Origin: a virus
Reading direction: 5' to 3' (one strand)
Length of the DNA: 21,459 nt
IMG/VR virus record: IMGVR_UViG_3300037847_000296
Span: 1-21,459 of that record
Of this stretch, positions 4,676 through 21,284 are shown one piece after another. Numbering within the stretch: position 1 is the first letter of the stretch; every line of letters starts with the position of its first letter. A model generated the notes under the pieces. The model saw nothing but the letters and a program-made list of their open reading frames with translations, searched no databases and was not told the origin of the DNA. The position numbers and the translations under genes are program-made.

Positions 4676-5628
4676 ACAGAGAATATTATAAACCCTTTGA
4701 TCATCCTTGGATGTTTGAAAAGTATGTAGAGCAAAACCAAATGCATTGGTTACCTGAGTCTGTACCTCTACATACAGATGTGAAAGACTGGCAAGAACTT
4801 ACGGATGAAGAAAAGAATTTATTAACACAGATATTTAGATTGTTTACACAGTCTGATGTAGATGTAGGATCAGGATACATCGATAAATACATGCGTATAT
4901 TTAAGAAACCTGAAGCACGAATGATGATGTGTTCCTTTGCAAACATGGAGTCTATTCATCAACATGCTTACAGTTTACTTTTAGATACAGTTGGTATGCC
5001 TGAAATAGAATACAAAGCTTTTGCTGAGTATGAAGAGATGGCAAACAAGCATGACTACATAAAAGACTTTAAACCTACTAGGCGGGATAAGCAGGCTATC
5101 GCAAGAACACTTGCAGTTTATTCCGGATTTACAGAAGGCTTACAACTTTTTAGTAGCTTTGCAATCTTGTTAAACTTTCCTAGATTTGGAAAGATGAAAG
5201 GTATGGGGCAGATAGTTACCTACTCTATACGTGATGAATCATTACACGTAGAAGCTATGACTAAACTGTTTCGTGAATTTATACAAGAGAACCTAGACAT
5301 ATGGACAGACGAGTTTAAGAAAGAACTCTATCAAATATGTAGAGAGATGGTCGAGTTGGAAGATAAGTTTTTAGATTTAGTATTTGAAATGGGAGACATG
5401 AAAGGACTTACAAAGAAAGATATGTATGCTTACAATAGATATATTGCAGACAGAAGGCTATTACAACTCGGATTAAAAACTAACTTTGATCAAAGAGAGA
5501 ACCCCTTACCTTGGCTTGATGAAGTACTAGGTGTTGAGCATCAGAACTTCTTCGAAGGTAGAGCAACAGCTTATATGAAAGCAGGACTCAGAGGTAAGCA
5601 AGACAAAGTAACATTTACGGAGATATAA
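4660..5628 (+). CDS. nrdB: Class I ribonucleoside-diphosphate reductase, beta (radical) subunit
   Basis: This di-iron ferritin-like subunit generates the tyrosyl radical used by NrdA. I place the start at 4660 (MSLLSNREYY, 322 aa): GTGGAG lies seven bases upstream, and the earlier in-frame ATG at 4636 would add eight residues with no ribosome-binding site. The full ligand set is present and spaced as in E. coli NrdB: Asp66 (SDVDV), Glu97 and His100 (MESIHQHAY), radical Tyr104, Glu159 (FTEGLQ), Glu193 and His196 (RDESLH). It is therefore a normal tyrosyl-radical enzyme, not one of the Tyr-less or Mn-only variants. It is somewhat shorter than E. coli NrdB (about 376 aa). The gene overlaps the 58-aa gene by 16 bases. 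Confidence 0.95.
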   Translation: MSLLSNREYYKPFDHPWMFEKYVEQNQMHWLPESVPLHTDVKDWQELTDEEKNLLTQIFRLFTQSDVDVGSGYIDKYMRIFKKPEARMMMCSFANMESIHQHAYSLLLDTVGMPEIEYKAFAEYEEMANKHDYIKDFKPTRRDKQAIARTLAVYSGFTEGLQLFSSFAILLNFPRFGKMKGMGQIVTYSIRDESLHVEAMTKLFREFIQENLDIWTDEFKKELYQICREMVELEDKFLDLVFEMGDMKGLTKKDMYAYNRYIADRRLLQLGLKTNFDQRENPLPWLDEVLGVEHQNFFEGRATAYMKAGLRGKQDKVTFTEI

Positions 5629-5873: not shown

Positions 5874-6242
5874 ATGGAATGGTTTGAGAATAAAACTACA
5901 CAGCTTATAGCATTGGTTAGTATAGTTGCAACCCTAGCAGGTTTTGGATATACTGGTGCTACCTATGTAAATAGGTTAGAGAATCTTGAAGCACAGATCG
6001 GTGGTATTGGAGATACAGAAACAGCACAGCAAGCAATCGAAGAAAGGTTTGCAGCTATTGAAACATCTGTTGATTATATCAATAAGAGTATTGATGAAGG
6101 TATAAATCCTTCGTTGAAAACTATTGCTGAATCAGTAAACGGTGATCGTCAAGATATCATTGCTTTAGAATCTGAAGTAAGATTCATACAAGATGAGATT
6201 GATAAGATATTAGAGGATAATAAAAATCCACTAGCTAATTAA
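5874..6242 (+). CDS. N-terminally membrane-anchored coiled-coil protein
   Basis: This 122-aa protein has one hydrophobic segment at about residues 10-31 (LIALVSIVATLAGFGYTGAT) after a short charged N-terminus. A long acidic, heptad-like helical region follows (about 33-115), broken by NPSLK. The expected topology is N-in, with the coiled coil in the periplasm. That arrangement is shared by inner-membrane spanins and by many small phage membrane proteins. It has no lipoprotein partner nearby and lies in the replication operon, away from the holin/endolysin block, so spanin is only one possibility. TAAGGAG lies eight bases before the ATG. It is the last gene of the + arm, and its stop overlaps the stop of the opposing 707-aa gene. 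Confidence 0.7.
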   Translation: MEWFENKTTQLIALVSIVATLAGFGYTGATYVNRLENLEAQIGGIGDTETAQQAIEERFAAIETSVDYINKSIDEGINPSLKTIAESVNGDRQDIIALESEVRFIQDEIDKILEDNKNPLAN

Positions 6243-8362
6243 AGATTAGGCTGAAGACTTTGCAACTCGTTTAGTTTATTTAGATTTACACTAGACAGCC
6301 CATTAAAGGCTCTTGTGTTATCATCTAAAACTACATCGGTATATATTGCTCTTGGTTCATACCAAGTATCTTGTTGCGGGATACTTAAATCTCGATAGGC
6401 ATCAAAGCCTACAACGTATCCCAAGTATGCTACTAGAGTAGACTCATCAGAGTATTGTCCAGTTTCTTGTTGCTCGGCTTCAGCTTGCTCTTGTTGTTCC
6501 TGAATATTTTGAGCAACAATCTGATCAGCAATTTGATCGGCTTCACTTACTGTCATAACTCCTGATATTGCAGTATTAATTTCACCTTGCATATCTTGTA
6601 CCTGTACATCAGCCATCGCAACCTGTGGAGTTCCGTCTAGATCAGGCATAATATTTATAGTTATACTGGATGTTGAAGACGTGTCTACATCTGAACTCAT
6701 AGATAAAACTTGTTGGTTTTGTGCTGATGCAGATACAACTTGATCAGAAATACTAGGCGAGCTTGTCGTACTTATCCCACCAGTAGATGACATAGACGAG
6801 CCTGAAGCCCCACTTGTACTATTACTAACTGCAGCTACTGATGAGTTTCTATTCGTTCCACCAGAGCCACGTATGGAGCTAGAAACACTATTCCTAGCAG
6901 ACTGTATAGTACTAGCTACAACGTCTAGTGCAGATACTCTTACTGAGCTTTTTTCTTCGTTGACTTCTTCCGTACTTTCTTCTTCGGCTTCGGCATATAA
7001 CTCTTCAGGTTCTTCTTCCATGATTTCATCATCTTCTTGAACTTCTTCCAGTTCTTCTTCAAACCACTCTTCGATTTCTTCCAACGCTTCAACAAGTTCT
7101 TCTTCATCTGTTTCATCATTTCTAAGTTCATCTTCTAATTCCTCTCTTATAATTTCAAATTCAAATACTTCTAATAGATCAGGTGTATGTGTAATTAGAA
7201 TAGGATCATCAAGTATATCAAAGCTTACTAAGTATTCTTCTTCTATACTTGGCAGAGCTTCGTAAGACTCTTCAATAAATATTTCTTCAAAGTATATTTC
7301 CTCTTCTTGTATGTCTTCAAACATAATAACAAACACTTCTTCTTCATATATATCTTCAATAAATATATAATCTTCGATAGGTTCTTCGTACCATTCCTCT
7401 TCAAATATAAACTCTTCGTAGTACTCTTCTTCTTCATAGCCATAGTCAAAATCATCTTCAACATAATAAGCTATCGATTGTTCTTGTTGATAACCTGCAC
7501 AGAACGGAGCATACTGTGGGTCTTCAGCACACTGTTGGTCGTCATAAGCTTCCCAATATGAAGGGCATGCCATATCATATAAAGCATCTAAGTCACATTG
7601 CTGTGTTAAATAAGCTGCCGCATATCCTGCACAACTAGAATCATTCAATGGATCACTACAATCTATACTGTTCCCTGAACCTACACCATATAAACTACCA
7701 CCATTCTCTAATGATGTATTACTAGCTGTACCATTCCAATCTGTATTTACACATGTACCTGCAATGTTTGTTGTACCTGTATTACATTCATCATGAAAAA
7801 GGTACTGATAGTATTGTGATGTACTTCCCTGCTCACCAATTAAAACATCATGCTGTATAATATCTAATGCACCATATCTATATTCAAATGTATTGTTGGT
7901 CCAAAGAATAACTTCAAAGCTGTTATCAGTATTATTCCTGTTGTATTCTTTTAAATTATACCAACCAAAAACTGCTTTATCACTAAAGTTCTTGGCAAGC
8001 ATTTTAGATTGATTGTCTCTGATTAAGTCTGTCCAGAATACAAACATAGTATTAGTGTACTGAGGAAGAGGATCAGGCGTATAATCACCACAATAGTTAT
8101 TGTAATTTACATTACCTGTACCTAAACCAAAATGCAGACACCCATTTGTAGCCATACGTGCTGAGTCATAAGCAGTACCATAGAAAGTAAATGAATTGTC
8201 TAGATTAAATGCTGCAGATAACTGATCGTCACCTGAGTTTAGGTTAGTAGTTCCTGTTTGATTTGTAAGGTCAATTAAAGATTGATTGCCTTCGTAGATA
8301 TATGCAGAGCTTACAAGTGTACTAAAACACAGTAGACTACTGGCTATAAAATTCTTTAGCAC
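6239..8362 (-). CDS. Secreted NIDO-domain protein with Cys-pair repeats and acidic tract
   Basis: This 707-aa protein starts at a GTG with AGGA seven bases upstream inside the preceding gene. Residues 1-20 form a Sec signal peptide, probably cut after VSSA. Residues about 25-200 resemble a nidogen-like (NIDO) domain: FTFYGTAYDSARMATNGCLHFG, a later FWTDL, and FEVILW/FEYRYG strands. Residues 235-288 hold three Cys-pair units of about 22 residues. Residues 302-471 are dominated by Glu/Asp with aromatic residues. A Ser-rich linker (about 484-570) and a helical Gln-rich stretch precede a C-terminal segment (about 643-707) containing a WYEPRAIYTD block. It is presumably exported and disulfide-bonded. 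The role is unknown: adhesion, host-surface modification, superinfection exclusion or a virion appendage are all open. It overlaps the 350-aa gene by 26 bases. Confidence 0.8.
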   Translation of the reverse strand: MLKNFIASSLLCFSTLVSSAYIYEGNQSLIDLTNQTGTTNLNSGDDQLSAAFNLDNSFTFYGTAYDSARMATNGCLHFGLGTGNVNYNNYCGDYTPDPLPQYTNTMFVFWTDLIRDNQSKMLAKNFSDKAVFGWYNLKEYNRNNTDNSFEVILWTNNTFEYRYGALDIIQHDVLIGEQGSTSQYYQYLFHDECNTGTTNIAGTCVNTDWNGTASNTSLENGGSLYGVGSGNSIDCSDPLNDSSCAGYAAAYLTQQCDLDALYDMACPSYWEAYDDQQCAEDPQYAPFCAGYQQEQSIAYYVEDDFDYGYEEEEYYEEFIFEEEWYEEPIEDYIFIEDIYEEEVFVIMFEDIQEEEIYFEEIFIEESYEALPSIEEEYLVSFDILDDPILITHTPDLLEVFEFEIIREELEDELRNDETDEEELVEALEEIEEWFEEELEEVQEDDEIMEEEPEELYAEAEEESTEEVNEEKSSVRVSALDVVASTIQSARNSVSSSIRGSGGTNRNSSVAAVSNSTSGASGSSMSSTGGISTTSSPSISDQVVSASAQNQQVLSMSSDVDTSSTSSITINIMPDLDGTPQVAMADVQVQDMQGEINTAISGVMTVSEADQIADQIVAQNIQEQQEQAEAEQQETGQYSDESTLVAYLGYVVGFDAYRDLSIPQQDTWYEPRAIYTDVVLDDNTRAFNGLSSVNLNKLNELQSLQPNL
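6950..7459 (-). repeat. Acidic low-complexity tract (Glu/Asp with Tyr, Phe, Ile)
   Basis: Residues 302-471 of the 707-aa protein are dominated by Glu and Asp codons, seen on the + strand as runs of TTC and CTT. The first half alternates acids with aromatic or aliphatic residues (YEEEEYYEEFIFEEEWYEE). The second half is helical (VEALEEIEEWFEEELEEVQ). Calcium binding or electrostatic surface interaction is possible but not shown. Confidence 0.8.
7499..7660 (-). repeat. Three tandem Cys-pair repeats within the 707-aa secreted protein
   Basis: Residues 235-288 contain six cysteines (235, 244, 256, 266, 278, 288) in the pattern C-x8/9-C-x11. Units read roughly C-acidic/polar-C-(A/P)-(G/S)-Y-...-QQ, with QQC joining one unit to the next. 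The even number and the export signal suggest one disulfide per unit or a chain of them. Confidence 0.8.
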
Positions 8363-9389
8363 AGGTACGTCCTGATTTCTTTTTACCGTTTGAGTTTCGT
8401 TGTGTCTTACAATGTGCCACGTATTTATCTTTGAGTTCTGCGTAGTCTGGTCTGTCGTGTCTATTTTCTTTCCAAGCTTTTGCAGCTTCTTTACCTATCT
8501 TACCTTGATAAGGACATGGAGTTCCTGCCATTTCCATAGCACTAAATACTCGTGGGTCTTGACAAAGTATAGACACAGACGCAACTTTCATTCCTGTATC
8601 ATATAAGTATTTAGAAAGCTTTAGACGTTCACAGTTTTCGTCACGTACTGCCTTCCCTCCTGACAATCCAAATACCTGCCCCTGAAAAGCACCTGAGACT
8701 CCTGTGGTACATAGGTCTTGAGAGTAAGACATGATACTAGGAGCAATAGCAGAAGCCGGAGGGGCTTTGGTTTTAACATTCTGATTTATATTCTGGGTAG
8801 AATTTGATTCGTTAATATTTCTGTTAGTATTATCAGATACGGTATTGTTGTTATTGGTATTATTATTCGTGTTATCAGTTGTGACATTAGATTCGGAAGT
8901 CGATTGATTTACATTTTTGTTTGTATTGTTTGTAGTACTAGTCGAGTTTGACGTGTTTACGTTAGTGTTTGTATTATTAGATGTGCTTGTTGTTGTGTTC
9001 GTAACATTCTGATTTACACTAGAGTTTACTGTACTAGTCGAAGTGTTTGTGTTTACGTTAGTGTTCTGATTAGTAGCAGTAGATGTATTTGTATTTACAT
9101 TCGTATTACTGTTTGTATTTGTACTAGTATTTGTATTCGTATTTGTATTGGTATTAGTATTAGTATTTGTATTTGTTGAAGTATTTGTGTTAGTGTTTGT
9201 GTTTGTATTAGTATTTGTATTGGTGTTTGTATTAGTATTTGTATTTGTATTAGTTGTAGTCGTAGTATTAGTTGTCTCTAAACTATTCTGTTCGCAGTAT
9301 TGTTCACCTGCTGTACAATCACCTGTCTGATCTGAGTAAGCTACAGATGCAAACAATGATAAAATTAGTGTGCCTAATAATTTTTTCAT
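8337..9389 (-). CDS. Secreted Asn/Thr-repeat protein with Cys-rich C-terminal domain
   Basis: This 350-aa protein begins with a clear Sec signal peptide (MKKLLGTLILSLFASVAYS, cleavage near residue 19). Two cysteines (25, 32) precede a low-complexity Asn/Thr/Ser tract (about 39-206) that begins as nearly pure NT dipeptides and decays into mixed N/T/S/V. Residues 209-350 form a distinct domain with six cysteines (227, 253, 276, 292, 327, 343), a QVFGLSGGKAVRDENCERLK block and a CQDPRVFSAMEMAGTPCPYQ block, ending in a basic tail. I believe similar C-terminal domains occur in marine phage hypotheticals but know no function. The tract may act as an extended spacer between membrane or envelope and the folded domain. 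GGAGAG precedes the ATG. The following NIDO gene starts inside this one, so the two are co-expressed. Confidence 0.82.
   Translation of the reverse strand: MKKLLGTLILSLFASVAYSDQTGDCTAGEQYCEQNSLETTNTTTTTNTNTNTNTNTNTNTNTNTNTNTNTSTNTNTNTNTNTNTNTNTSTNTNSNTNVNTNTSTATNQNTNVNTNTSTSTVNSSVNQNVTNTTTSTSNNTNTNVNTSNSTSTTNNTNKNVNQSTSESNVTTDNTNNNTNNNNTVSDNTNRNINESNSTQNINQNVKTKAPPASAIAPSIMSYSQDLCTTGVSGAFQGQVFGLSGGKAVRDENCERLKLSKYLYDTGMKVASVSILCQDPRVFSAMEMAGTPCPYQGKIGKEAAKAWKENRHDRPDYAELKDKYVAHCKTQRNSNGKKKSGRTCAKEFYSQ
8772..9275 (-). repeat. Asn/Thr coding tract with hexanucleotide period
   Basis: About 500 bases encode residues 39-206 of the secreted 350-aa protein. The 5' part of the tract (about 9100-9270) is a near-perfect six-base repeat, AAYACN on the coding strand, giving Asn-Thr dipeptides with only synonymous third-base changes and occasional Ser. 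The rest is degenerate. Such arrays change length easily by slippage. Confidence 0.88.
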
Positions 9390-9557: not shown

Positions 9558-9728
9558 TTATTTACACTCCTTCTTATTAAATTCATTCCATCTTAGGAAT
9601 TCTTTGGTTTCTAAATCCCAAAACAATCCTTTGTAACAATTATCGTCTTGCGATTCTTCTTCTTCTTCTGCGAGTCCGTACCAATTCCAACGTCCGTCCT
9701 CGATAACGTCTTTTAATTTCTGTTTCAT
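9558..9728 (-). CDS. Small acidic hypothetical protein, 56 aa, after holin
   Basis: This short gene is easily overlooked. Its ATG (9728-9726) shares one base with the holin stop (TAATG). The frame runs 56 codons to TAA at 9558. The product starts MKQKLKDVIEDGRWNWYGLA, then has a Glu run (EEEEE), one CYKGLFWDLE segment and a basic end (FNKKECK). Aromatic residues (four Trp) are frequent for so small a protein. There is no membrane segment or signal peptide. It is the last gene before the putative terminator, so it belongs to the lysis block by position, but no lysis role can be read from it. I do not recognise a family. Confidence 0.72.
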   Translation of the reverse strand: MKQKLKDVIEDGRWNWYGLAEEEEESQDDNCYKGLFWDLETKEFLRWNEFNKKECK

Positions 9729-10198
9729 TAATCCGATTTATGTGATGCTCCAAAGTAAAAGCTAATCACTGCTGATGCCAATCCACCTAGATATCCTAAG
9801 ACTAGGTTTATCAAGGCTTCTGAATTTTGCTCTGGAGGTTGAAGGGTTACTAAAAATATATACCCCATAAATCCACCAACTACAGATACACCTACTATTC
9901 TAGCTGTCCAGTCTTTACTAAAAGCCTTCCTAGCATCTTGTGTATCACCTACTTCTAACTTAAATACATCAACATCGAGTTCTTTCATTTGAAGTTCAAA
10001 CTCTTGTTCAGCTTTTTTAAGTTCAAGCATTTGTTCTGGTGTAGCTTCTTGTATAGCTTTCTCAATAGCCTTTGGTGTATTAGGTACTCCTAACACATCC
10101 GCTATCATGTTTGCAGCCATACCACCCATTGGACCGCCTAGAGCAGTACCTATTGTAGGTGCAACCGCTCCTACTAGATTCTTTAACATATCTTTCAT
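9728..10198 (-). CDS. Holin, three-TM (GTA_holin_3TM-like)
   Basis: This 156-aa membrane protein is expected to open the inner membrane so that the endolysin can reach the cell wall. It has an Ala/Gly-rich hydrophobic N-terminal segment (about 8-37). A charged helical middle (about 52-98) contains the MLELKKAEQEFELQMKELD pattern typical of the GTA/phage three-TM holins. Two strong membrane helices follow (about 101-118 and 129-150), with a short charged tail (SHKSD). A DWTAR motif precedes the second membrane helix, as in the family. It starts within the stop of the 50-aa gene (ATGA), and the lysozyme gene is two genes upstream. This confirms a lysis cassette. Confidence 0.87.
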   Translation of the reverse strand: MKDMLKNLVGAVAPTIGTALGGPMGGMAANMIADVLGVPNTPKAIEKAIQEATPEQMLELKKAEQEFELQMKELDVDVFKLEVGDTQDARKAFSKDWTARIVGVSVVGGFMGYIFLVTLQPPEQNSEALINLVLGYLGGLASAVISFYFGASHKSD

Positions 10199-10347
10199 GC
10201 TTCTTCGTCCTTATATATAACTTCCATTAAGTCTTCAAACATATTTCTAAAATCGTCTAGACTCATGAAGGGCATATCTTGTTTTATTTGATGTAGACAA
10301 TATTGCCTATAGCATCCTTCTAGTTGATCCTCTAAGTACAATATCAT
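10195..10347 (-). CDS. Small hypothetical protein, 50 aa, between endolysin and holin
   Basis: A 50-codon frame starts at ATG 10347-10345, ten bases after the endolysin stop, with AAGGA a suitable distance upstream. It ends in TGA overlapping the holin ATG by four bases. The product starts MILYLEDQLEGCYRQYCLHQ and continues with MPFMSLDDFRNMFEDLMEV. It is acidic and helical, with two cysteines spaced C-x4-C and no membrane segment. The MSLDDFR-x-MFE block looks like a compact helical motif I associate with small phage proteins in similar positions, but no function is known to me. Its location between endolysin and holin makes an effect on lysis timing conceivable, which is inference only. Confidence 0.72.
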   Translation of the reverse strand: MILYLEDQLEGCYRQYCLHQIKQDMPFMSLDDFRNMFEDLMEVIYKDEEA

Positions 10348-10357
10348 TATACGGTCC

Positions 10358-10819
10358 TTATTTTAATTTGTCAATAGCTGTAACAAAATCTTCTACTCTA
10401 ACTGGTGTTTGTTCTTTCCATTTAGATTGTCCATCCTTTCCAGAGCCTGTTGAGACTTGTTTTATAGCCTCATCGTAGTCTTTACTAGCCAAGGCTCTAT
10501 AGGCTGACGGGAACTTATCCATCCATCTAGTGCCTAGTTGAAAGTTTACTGAGCCTAGTGCAATTATAAAGTCTGTATCTTCTATCCCAAGGTCTTGAAT
10601 CTGTTGTGCTGCAGCCTCCCATGCTTTCACAGCATCTTGTTCTAACCATGCATTTCTTTGTTCTTCGGAAACCTGATCACCTACTTGGTATACTTGACGT
10701 TCTCTTTCTGTCAAGAGATGTCCAACACCACAGGTAGGTTTGCCTAGTGTATCAAGGTATACGCATTCTTCGTTACCTTCTCTAAGTTCAAGGTGTTCTA
10801 AGTAGTCGTTGTATTTCAT
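10358..10819 (-). CDS. Endolysin, T4-type lysozyme (glycoside hydrolase family 24)
   Basis: This 153-aa muramidase should cleave the glycan strands of host peptidoglycan at the end of infection. The T4-lysozyme catalytic triad is present with exact spacing: Glu14 (LREG), Asp23 (VYLDT) and Thr29 (KPTCGVGHLL), matching T4 Glu11, Asp20 and Thr26. The conserved GVGHLL loop follows. A later FIIALGSVNFQLG block corresponds to the C-terminal lobe. There is no signal peptide or SAR anchor, so it should stay in the cytoplasm until the holin (9728-10198) triggers. It starts inside the stop of the 1560-aa gene (ATGA), with AGGA close to the ATG. Confidence 0.93.
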   Translation of the reverse strand: MKYNDYLEHLELREGNEECVYLDTLGKPTCGVGHLLTERERQVYQVGDQVSEEQRNAWLEQDAVKAWEAAAQQIQDLGIEDTDFIIALGSVNFQLGTRWMDKFPSAYRALASKDYDEAIKQVSTGSGKDGQSKWKEQTPVRVEDFVTAIDKLK

Positions 10820-18072: not shown

Positions 18073-19152
18073 TTAACTAGCTAACAGGGTCGTGTCGTAA
18101 ATATGTCCTGCTTGTTTATATTTGTTTAATAAACTTAACGCAGTGGTAGGTGAAGGGCTTGGTAAACTCGTTTGAGATGCAAACTGCTCCATTGGCATTT
18201 GTCCATAGAGTCTTTCTTCATTTGCTGATAATGCACTAATTGCTCCTGAAGTATCGCTCCTTCCTTGAACATAAGGATCAGGAGGGCTTGCTAATAAACT
18301 TGCAACTGTCATACCTTCTCCAATAGTAGTATTTCTTACAAACTTTGGTAGGTTAGTATCTTGAAGCGGAGCATAACCTAATGATTTATCATATACTTCT
18401 GTTAAAGTTTTAGACTCATCTAAAATATCTGCAACTCTAGGAAAGTTCCTTTCTATAAATCCGGGTTGTTTAGGGTTTACTGTAGGTAACGTAGGATCAG
18501 TTAATGCGAAATCAGGAGATACACTTTCCATTGCTAGGTCTGTACCAAATTCTACTGGTTTAGTAGATTCTAATAAAGATGTAGGTGTTTGTTTCATAGA
18601 ACCTACTCGACTTGTTTCTTCAAGTAATCTTCCTCCTCCAGTTTCTGTTCCTGCAGTTACAATACTACCATCTGTTGTAGTTCTTACAGCTTGCTCAGTT
18701 ACATCTGTAGGAGATGGCATACCGGCAAGTTTATCTCCAATTATATCTGCTTTTTGTCCTCCACTTACAACTGCATCACTTGCAAAATCAACTGATGATC
18801 CTGCATTTTTCGCAACTTCATTACTTAATTTTTCAGCACTTGCTTTTTGTGCTGTTGCAGTTTCACCAAACATTCCTTTAATACCATCGGTAATTGTACT
18901 AAACGTAGCATTGGCAGCATTACCCATAGCTCCTAAACCATTAGAAAATGCTGTGCCCATTCCTTGTCCTGCCCATAAAGTACTCGTAAAAGCTTTTGCT
19001 CCACTTAGCATCCAACCTCCAATCATCATCATACCTATAGTACCGACAATCTTGCCTAGTTTAGTTTTCATAAGTTTCTTAAAAGGCTTACCAATAGCTT
19101 TACCTATTTTCTTTATTCCTTTACCTATCTTTTTAACAAATTTCTTAAGCAT
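18073..19152 (-). CDS. Probable ejection/internal virion protein with cationic amphipathic N-terminus
   Basis: This 359-aa protein starts with a strikingly basic amphipathic helix. Residues 1-34 contain 14 lysines and no acidic residue, with a repeated K-K-I-G-K pattern. A hydrophobic segment follows (about 35-55, IVGTIGMMMIGGWMLSGA) and then a Gly/Ala/Ser-rich stretch. The remainder is low in recognisable structure: Thr/Ser/Pro-rich, with repeated small residues, ending in YKQAGHIYDTTLLAS. The cationic helix plus hydrophobic helix resembles membrane-active peptides. In a virion protein it suggests insertion into the host membrane during DNA entry, analogous to T7 gp14. No Sec signal is called because the basic region is too long. 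GGAAGG lies upstream of the ATG; the preceding 708-aa gene ends five bases before it. Confidence 0.68.
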   Translation of the reverse strand: MLKKFVKKIGKGIKKIGKAIGKPFKKLMKTKLGKIVGTIGMMMIGGWMLSGAKAFTSTLWAGQGMGTAFSNGLGAMGNAANATFSTITDGIKGMFGETATAQKASAEKLSNEVAKNAGSSVDFASDAVVSGGQKADIIGDKLAGMPSPTDVTEQAVRTTTDGSIVTAGTETGGGRLLEETSRVGSMKQTPTSLLESTKPVEFGTDLAMESVSPDFALTDPTLPTVNPKQPGFIERNFPRVADILDESKTLTEVYDKSLGYAPLQDTNLPKFVRNTTIGEGMTVASLLASPPDPYVQGRSDTSGAISALSANEERLYGQMPMEQFASQTSLPSPSPTTALSLLNKYKQAGHIYDTTLLAS

Positions 19153-19157
19153 AATTT

Positions 19158-21284
19158 TTACCTTCCATAATCTGGATCATCCGCACCAGTAGCAGTTTGT
19201 GTAGTATATCCATTAAAAACTCCTTGAACTGCCTTTAATGCTTGACTAACATTCCTACCTTTATATATTAAACCATCATTACCAAGCGCAGCAATCGTTA
19301 ATGAAGCTTTACGTTGTAGTTCATTCTCATCTCTTTTAAATGCAAAGTCAGCTTCATCTCTAAGTTCTTGCCATAAAAAAGCTTGAGCTTGCATACTCAT
19401 ACCAAAAGCATTCTGTGCATTCTGTTGATTAATTGCATTTTGTGCTGCAGTATTAATTGTATTTGCCTGTCTTCTCCATTGTGTATTAGCTTGTTCAATA
19501 GCCTGTGCATTCTGTACATTCCATTGATTCTTAGCAAACTCTTGTTGAGCATTGTATTGATTAATCTGTGTTTCAAGCTGTGCATTTAATTTAGAAACAT
19601 CGGCTGCTCTATTTGCATTCTGTGCAGCAATTGCATTTTCTTGTTGTACATTAAACTGTTCCATTGCATTTTGCTGTCTAGTATTATCCATTGCAACTTG
19701 CGTAGCTAAGTTAGCCATAAACTGATTAGTTTGATTTTCACTAGCAGCATTAAATTGTCTAGCTGCATTTGTCGCAGCTTGATTACTTAACATAGCTTGC
19801 TGTTCTGCTTGAGCAGTAAACATCTTAGCTTGTTGATCATTAGACAGGTTTGCCATATCCATTTGTAGAAATGCTGCTGCATTCTGTGCAGTTAGTTTAG
19901 TTATGTTGTTTGCTTCTGCTAAATTAATCTGTGACTGTATAACTGCATTTTGTATTGTAGCTTGTTGATCAGCACTAGCCTCGGTTAAACTAACTGTTTG
20001 TAAGAATTTACTGTTACTTAATGCTGTTTGTTGATCAGCACTAAACTGTGCCATGTCCATTTTAAAAACATTACTAGCATTAGTCAATGCAGTTTGCTGT
20101 GCTCTTTGTGCATTAGCTTCAGCTTCTGCAGCCTCTATACTTCTTTGCTGTGTTGCTGCTTGTTGTAGTGCAGTTGCATTACTTTGAGCAAGAGGCATAG
20201 CAGCTTGTATAATAGAATTAAATAAAGCATCTCTTCCTACACTAGAAGCACTTAAACCTCTAGCTGCTAACATTTGTTCTACTTTAGCTACTGCCGGAGA
20301 AGCCCATACAGGTATTTCTCCATTTTCCATTCCCTCTAATAAACCATTCAATTGCCCTGTGACTAGAATTTGTTTATCTACTCCTGCAATAATTCCTCTT
20401 TCTTCTTCTGTAAAATCTGTAAGCCTATCTTCAAGAGCTTCTATATCATCACCAATTTCAGCAATTTGATCTTCTGTAAGACCTGCATTTCTTAATTGTT
20501 TTTTAGCTCTAGTAATTTTTCTTAAACTTGTACCTGCATTAACTGCGGCTGTAGCTTTTGCACCATCACTAATTTTACCTACAACTCTTTTTGTTAAAGC
20601 ACCTTCCTGTATTTCTACATCTGCTCCTTCAATTTTTTCAACATCTGCAACATCTGCTGCTGCTGCGATTTCATCTTCAGTTAGTTCTGCATCTTCGGAT
20701 ACTTCACCTTGAGCAGCTTCAGCTACTGCAGAATCTGTCTGAACAGCATCCATTTTAGCTGCAGTTACTGTATCTGGTGCAGCAGTTGTAGTAGCAGTAC
20801 CTGTAGTTGCGGTAGCATCTGTAGCTGTAGCAACTCCTGCTTCTGCAACTGACAAATCTGCATCAGTCATTTGCTTAGTTTCAGCCTCTATAGTCTCATC
20901 AACTTTTTCAGCATCAGGTATAACAGCTTCCGGAGGTACTTCTCCTTTAGCAGAAGACTCAACAGTTTCTGTAGTTCTTGCTATTCTTTTTCTTCTTTCA
21001 TCCGGATCAACTGAGGGAGGTGGTTCTGTAGGAGTTGGAGTAGGAGTAGGAGTAGGCGTAGGAGTAGCAGTCGGCGTAGGCGTAGGCGTTGGTGTTGGTG
21101 TTGGTGTTGGTGTTGGAGTAGGCGTAGGAGTTGCGTCACTTCCATTTTCCTGTTGAGCATCCATCTCATCTTGACGACCTGTTTCACGCTCACCACCATC
21201 TTGATAACCTACACGTCCACCTTGAGTATAGTCTTCTCTCAATCCTTTATTATACCTTTTTCTCTGTTTAGTTTTATTCTTCAT
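19158..21284 (-). CDS. Probable virion protein with Pro-Thr repeat and Gln/Asn/Ala-rich helical domain, 708 aa
   Basis: The N-terminus is basic (MKNKTKQRKRYNKGLR), followed by a glycine tag TQGGRVGYQDGG. A Pro-Thr dipeptide repeat (residues 52-86) and an acidic Ala/Thr/Glu-rich region (about 95-230) come next. A compact helical part (about 250-370) includes VWASPAVAKVEQMLAARGLS. The C-terminal half (about 360-640) is Gln/Asn/Ala-rich helix with recurring MDMA-x-x-S-x-DQQ units (409-419, 475-485), and a charged end follows. I recall similar Gln/Asn-rich repeat proteins among structural proteins of marine cyanophages and pelagiphages. No enzymatic motif or signal peptide is seen. GAGG precedes the ATG, which shares one base with the upstream stop. 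A role as a long helical tail or internal virion component is inferred. Confidence 0.7.
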   Translation of the reverse strand: MKNKTKQRKRYNKGLREDYTQGGRVGYQDGGERETGRQDEMDAQQENGSDATPTPTPTPTPTPTPTPTPTPTATPTPTPTPTPTPTEPPPSVDPDERRKRIARTTETVESSAKGEVPPEAVIPDAEKVDETIEAETKQMTDADLSVAEAGVATATDATATTGTATTTAAPDTVTAAKMDAVQTDSAVAEAAQGEVSEDAELTEDEIAAAADVADVEKIEGADVEIQEGALTKRVVGKISDGAKATAAVNAGTSLRKITRAKKQLRNAGLTEDQIAEIGDDIEALEDRLTDFTEEERGIIAGVDKQILVTGQLNGLLEGMENGEIPVWASPAVAKVEQMLAARGLSASSVGRDALFNSIIQAAMPLAQSNATALQQAATQQRSIEAAEAEANAQRAQQTALTNASNVFKMDMAQFSADQQTALSNSKFLQTVSLTEASADQQATIQNAVIQSQINLAEANNITKLTAQNAAAFLQMDMANLSNDQQAKMFTAQAEQQAMLSNQAATNAARQFNAASENQTNQFMANLATQVAMDNTRQQNAMEQFNVQQENAIAAQNANRAADVSKLNAQLETQINQYNAQQEFAKNQWNVQNAQAIEQANTQWRRQANTINTAAQNAINQQNAQNAFGMSMQAQAFLWQELRDEADFAFKRDENELQRKASLTIAALGNDGLIYKGRNVSQALKAVQGVFNGYTTQTATGADDPDYGR
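21027..21131 (-). repeat. Pro-Thr hexanucleotide repeat in the 708-aa gene
   Basis: About 105 bases encode alternating Pro and Thr (residues 52-86, with a single Ala). On the coding strand it is a six-base period, CCNACN, with varied third bases, so the amino-acid pattern is kept while DNA identity drifts. It probably forms a stiff, extended linker between the glycine-tagged basic N-terminus and the helical body. Confidence 0.88.

Follow-up and report, generated by a model that had tools for sequence, protein, structure and literature searches.

Pelagiphages rank with the most abundant viruses on Earth, and function is lacking for most of their genes. In a 21,459-nucleotide stretch of viral DNA, analyzed at full length and here called the window (IMG/VR record IMGVR_UViG_3300037847_000296, positions 1 to 21,459), we describe a block of three genes, designated A, B, and C, of which A and B look like Sec-exported products and C encodes a small membrane protein. 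The block is common across unrelated phage families and shows where to look for an envelope-level interaction between phages and SAR11 bacteria. No published description of the trio was found among open-licence papers.

Several described systems resemble the block in part. The curli or type VIII secretion modules published for pelagiphages (PMC7029224, PMC9599517, and PMC9004378) share with it phage-encoded Sec-dependent envelope proteins and conservation across SAR11 podo- and myoviruses, but CsgG was found in none of 50 module-bearing records, with positive controls that worked, and A-B-C instead includes a coiled-coil membrane protein and a head of glycan type; a curli module was ruled out by the absence of CsgG. 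Rz/Rz1 spanins and lysis cassettes have in common with it the lysis-region position and a protein with an N-terminal transmembrane (TM) segment and coiled coil next to exported proteins. The signals of A and B are type I-like, however, their cleavage regions lack a lipobox Cys, and genuine Rz/Rz1 genes coexist beside the module in some phages, by which a plain spanin replacement was ruled out. The releasin gp25 of phage Mu, a DUF2730 protein with N-out/C-in topology (PMC9239132), is matched by C in being short, with an N-terminal TM segment, an acidic coiled coil, a weak N-out/C-in bias, and a place near the endolysin; C differs in having no DUF2730 match and two exported partners, and the window endolysin lacks a signal-anchor-release segment. 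PHROG 20531 is matched by A of the window, HTVC023P, and Mosig, but the PHROGs entry carries no function and no partner. Finally, the name of carbohydrate-binding host-recognition protein (PMC3909814) is borne by the CBM-type B of MedDCM-OCT-S28-C10 and HTVC033P, whereas B here has a signal peptide and stands between A and C; only four records in this analysis match the B type of MedDCM-OCT-S28-C10.

Conservation and distribution of the A-B-C block

Judged from sequence, A-B-C is a conserved three-gene block of two proteins with signal peptides and one small membrane protein, inherited together. Of 102 distinct loci whose sequence extends 4 kb or more downstream from A, 100 have C in the first 5 kb beyond A; C shares the strand of A in 95 of them and is on the opposite one in 5. 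Counting genes from A, C comes second in 94 of 111. From the other side, A lay near C in all 62 informative distinct loci found via C alone; loci counted as informative when they contained A or had more than 4.5 kb on each side, meaning that no full-flank locus lacked A. A preliminary description of the window had reported a module of two adjacent overlapping genes. The pair was confirmed, with an overlap of 26 bp on one strand, and in the marine virome search A and B co-occurred and stayed adjacent; the third member, C, had been missed, and the module is a trio.

The A domain retrieved 11 phage records by tblastn (six Pelagibacter phages, two Roseobacter phages, one Mediterranean fosmid, and two freshwater spring genomes), and two scans of IMG/VR for A each yielded at least hundreds of loci. 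The order of A, a large exported protein, and a small TM/coiled-coil protein ending in NPL was found in HTVC202P, HTVC023P, the myovirus Mosig, Baldr, HTVC033P, and MedDCM-OCT-S28-C10, the blocks of Baldr and HTVC023P containing one additional small open reading frame (ORF). In HTVC115P, the NPL-ended protein lies four genes beyond A-B, with a similar protein without NPL in between. The block is carried by SAR11 podo- and myoviruses that are unrelated to one another, cultured phages included, and by Roseobacter phages. Across these phage groups A and C are clearly homologous; what the B proteins have in common is a short C-terminal motif. The module was also seen in contigs of metagenome-assembled genomes (MAGs; loci L168 to L191) that are assigned to a wide range of unrelated bacteria and archaea; most likely these contigs are from phages and entered the MAGs through binning. 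In L178 (PBPT01000016.1, 335231 bp), filed as a Neomarinimicrobiota MAG, it stands beside phage-like genes, possibly those of a misbinned jumbo phage.

In comparisons of the window with its relatives, the ratio of nonsynonymous to synonymous polymorphism (pN/pS) was 0.05 to 0.25 for A, 0.21 to 0.32 for B, and 0.07 to 0.56 for C, values indicating that all three genes are under purifying selection. The module costs about 3.5 kb of length. Strong selection had been expected from the space taken in a compact genome; the expectation was right for the sequences and wrong for presence, the module being accessory (see below). No match was found in Rfam.

Export signals and domain organization

Both A and B begin with the n-h-c layout typical of signal peptides and a small-residue cleavage site, A with MKKLLGTLILSLFASVAYS before DQTGDC and B with MLKNFIASSLLCFSTLVSSA before YIYEGN. 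A home-made, rule-based scan was applied to proteins from distinct loci, with other phage ORFs of at least 100 amino acids (aa) as the control, and was passed by 116 of 139 A proteins (83%), 88 of 105 B proteins (84%), and 81 of 864 other ORFs (9%), many of the last being holin-like membrane proteins. Within the window it also flagged the holin-like protein, a 359-aa protein (18073 to 19152), and a cut-off frame (2 to 370); the scan is thus unspecific for single proteins, and the family-level contrast carries the weight. The clear signal peptides of the preliminary description are borne out by the N-termini and by this contrast, and an exported trio is considered very probable.

The Asn/Thr repeat and six-Cys domain reported earlier for A were both recovered. 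The Asn/Thr/Ser region spans ~173 residues, including 64 Asn and 61 Thr, with a period-2 alternation of 0.53 compared with 0.28 ± 0.03 in shuffled sequence. Its codons are mixed (all four for Thr and both for Asn), which rules out fresh DNA slippage and, together with the two-residue period, points to selection on the protein. Four of the six Cys (C22, C48, C71, and C87) are invariant across 12 diverse phages, including Roseobacter phages, and A of the window matched phrog_20531 with an E value of 2.8e-10. In the AlphaFold model a beta hairpin and helices are predicted from about residue 250 with a per-residue confidence (pLDDT) of 75 to 91, the upstream part having lower values and the Asn/Thr region being unstructured. 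A PDB sequence search gave no match, and BFVD matches of A and B were uncharacterized phage proteins only, with one borderline distant match in Achromobacter phage phiAxp-2. This distant A-like exported protein (L269:3599-4156; BFVD Foldseek E value of 4.8e-3) is encoded on the strand opposite to the structural genes, with no B or C recognized alongside and a neighbor protein that starts like a signal peptide.

B is composed of a head (residues ~30 to 200), Cys repeats (~235 to 290), an acidic stretch (~300 to 480), and the C-terminal motif WYEPxxIYxDxxxxDN. Its AlphaFold model has a beta-rich head with pLDDT mostly 78 to 93 and long low-confidence stretches in the rest, and structure prediction thereby gave a confident domain in each exported protein. 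Of the earlier characterization of B as NIDO-like, Cys-repeat, and acidic, the latter two features are visible, and the first goes back to a match of the NIDO profile (PF06119) in 1 of 51 B homologues (E value of 4.4e-4), with no match in B of the window itself. The CBM_4_9 profile weakly matched 2 of the 51 homologues, and the head type varies between phage groups, NIDO-like or CBM-like. The tails of the NIDO and CBM types gave 0.7% in hhalign and no alignment, which leaves homology of the whole tail unsupported, and a short motif, [WF]YxxxxIYxD, is what the types have in common; by this motif 5 of 7 CBM-type tails ranked within the top 6 of 3007, but the sequences are related. No match was obtained for B against cultured phages by tblastn or, in PHROGs at E ≤ 0.01, for four B and two C proteins from other phages; the one PHROGs match of B of the window was spurious.

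C of the window is convergent with B, overlaps its stop by 4 bp, and belongs to the same family as the HTVC023P-type C (hhalign 97.7%, E value of 1.6e-12). It weakly matched the PADLOC model of LmuB (E value of 6.5e-5) in the coiled coil only, a probably compositional similarity. Two proteins annotated as lysozymes, CRP-207 gp73 (L165:3292-3873) and CRP-810 gp51 (L166:7198-7620), resemble C in their TM segment, coiled coil, and NPL end; the lysozyme label was dropped as a likely misannotation, Pfam giving no lysozyme match.

Table 1. Positions of the A-B-C genes and neighboring features in the window
Feature	Position	Strand	Description
Gene A	8337..9389	-	350 aa; signal peptide, Asn/Thr/Ser region, six-Cys C-terminal domain; PHROG 20531 family
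Gene B	6239..8362	-	707 aa, GTG start; signal peptide, beta-rich NIDO-like head, Cys repeats, acidic stretch, C-terminal motif
Gene C	5874..6242	+	122 aa; one N-terminal TM segment and coiled coil; ends NPLAN
Holin-like membrane protein	9728..10198	-	PHROG 1544, to which PHROGs assigns no function; directly upstream of A save a ~56-aa ORF
Lysozyme-type endolysin	10358..10819	-	PF00959, E value of 5e-9; phrog_7
Perfect sigma-70 promoter match	10346..10374	-	TTGACA-17-TATAAT; heads 49/50-aa ORF, holin-like gene, A, and B

Lysis neighborhood and promoter

The module had been described as following the lysis cassette, and in the window the lysozyme and holin-like genes do immediately precede A and B, on the strand that carries these two (Table 1). 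Of 61 loci with sequence on both sides of the module, 45 have an endolysin, holin-like, or Rz gene close to it, as do 12 of 15 loci in a second, CBM-type set, and by clustering the nearest lysis-type gene was one or two genes off in 38 of the 42 loci having one. Profiles confirmed endolysin (phrog_7), Rz (phrog_739), and Rz1 (phrog_812) among the neighbor families. Rz and Rz1 adjoin the module in some loci, the phrog_812 o-spanin being a separate gene in 5 of the 50 module-bearing records. An M15 peptidase gene immediately follows C in HTVC023P, and a holin-like gene matching PF11351 (GTA_holin_3TM) precedes A in Mosig.

The promoter match is located at the end of the lysozyme gene, and about 20 loci of the window clade have the same site, each time before a member of the same 49/50-aa ORF family. 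Perfect TTGACA-17-TATAAT matches numbered 37 in 2.9 million strand-bases of these loci, mostly at this one place. The 49/50-aa ORF behind the promoter contains Cys and starts with MILYLEDQLEGCYRQYC. Families of tiny proteins of about 70-75 aa with Cys and a hydrophobic N-terminus, possibly further exported proteins, were seen near pelagiphage lysis genes (L271:16800-17021, L273:4894-5109 and 5106-5318, and L161:4549-4770) and also in the module-free HTVC104P.

Proposed action in the host envelope and alternatives

From the conserved trio, the export signals, the lysis-region position, and the accessory distribution read in the sequences, we infer a periplasmic complex, bridging by B, and action at lysis. 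Late in infection, A and B would pass through the host Sec machinery into the periplasm, acquire disulfide bonds, and remain there, because no outer-membrane exporter is encoded. C would reside in the inner membrane, B, long and acidic and with a head of a type that binds glycans or matrix, would span the periplasm, and A would bind B or the wall or outer membrane. Active at lysis, the complex would help to breach the outer layers or set the timing of their failure, supplementing the usual endolysin and holin and, in phages that have them, Rz/Rz1. This interpretation of A-B-C as an accessory envelope module forming a periplasmic lysis-stage complex is assigned a probability of about 0.4. Action in the host envelope and not in the virion is quite probable, action at the lysis stage is a tentative assignment, and it is rather doubtful that the block constitutes a previously undescribed periplasm-spanning machine that late in infection targets the outer envelope in streamlined marine bacteria, distinct from holin, endolysin, spanin, and curli. 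Display in the periplasm or on the cell surface had been proposed before; with CsgG missing from the 50 records and no outer-membrane exporter found, periplasmic residence is likelier than true surface display. The roles suggested along with it, namely superinfection exclusion, altered adhesion, ligand capture, and virion appendages, stay at the level of proposals.

A number of observations weigh against a lysis-stage complex. No recognized lysis gene was nearby in 16 of the 61 loci, and the module region also hosts tail-fiber and other variable genes, which makes the neighborhood weak evidence. C of the window lies on the strand opposite to A and B, at the end of the nrd operon, and the charge bias of C proteins leans weakly to N-out/C-in (59 versus 11, with 44 ties), an orientation in which the coiled coil would be cytoplasmic. 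A and B had no PDB fold match at E ≤ 0.001. The nearest cultured relative of the window phage is HTVC115P (nrdB 71% identical), and the 1560-aa protein of the window has its best matches in HTVC104P, HTVC103P, and HTVC115P, which have Pelagibacter HTCC7211 as a common host. A is present in HTVC115P and without a match across the whole records of HTVC103P and HTVC104P, yet both infect HTCC7211; they retain a homologue of HTVC115P gp52 that resembles C but does not end in NPL, and the genes flanking the module site are otherwise similar. The module is therefore accessory and not required to infect or lyse HTCC7211.

The same distribution among phages of one host strain counts in favor of superinfection exclusion, the main rival, in which exported A and B anchored by C would occupy or alter envelope glycans and block the adsorption, wall crossing, or DNA injection of a second phage. 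It fits nearly as well as the lysis-stage complex, given the export of A and B, a binding-type head that differs by phage group, and, in the window clade, a promoter of host type from which the genes could be expressed without a phage polymerase. However, in gene order A and B belong with structural and lysis genes of the late type, and many exclusion genes are early ones; the PADLOC defense and exclusion models were unmatched except by the coiled coil of C. Exclusion is on the unlikely side. A surface adhesin or aggregation system of infected cells, similar to the "sibling capture" idea for pelagiphage curli, would draw on the beta-prone look of the Asn/Thr alternation, on NIDO and CBM heads being adhesion-type domains, and on the curli genes borne by other pelagiphages (PMC7029224 and PMC9599517), but with neither CsgG nor another outer-membrane exporter seen in module-bearing records and the Asn/Thr region modeled as unstructured, it appears improbable.

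The naming by Mizuno et al. 2014 (PMC3909814), borne exactly by B of MedDCM-OCT-S28-C10, would make B a virion or host-recognition protein, and the module often adjoins tail-fiber genes. Against this assignment, which is still less credible, stand the frequency of signal peptides (84% of B proteins and 83% of A proteins, but 9% of other ORFs) and the association of B with another exported protein and with a membrane protein. The block also suggests that a carbohydrate-binding, host-recognition annotation may, for one gene or more, belong to a product exported into the host, not built into the virion. That C is a releasin like Mu gp25, freeing or activating the endolysin with A and B as its periplasmic partners, is very unlikely. 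The depositors annotated C of MedDCM-OCT-S28-C10 as DUF2730, C has one TM segment, an acidic coiled coil, and the weak orientation bias of a releasin, and endolysins are close by; yet membership in DUF2730 (PF10805) was not reproduced in a Pfam scan of C proteins that included the MedDCM protein, nor for C of the window at E ≤ 1, and the window lysozyme starts with MKYNDYLEHLELREG, with no signal-anchor segment to release.

Elsewhere in the window, positions 19158-21284 on the minus strand encode a 708-aa protein with a long Thr-Pro repeat, which by eye seems to correspond to HTVC115P gp47 and HTVC104P gp61 in its similar Gln/Ala-rich region and position.

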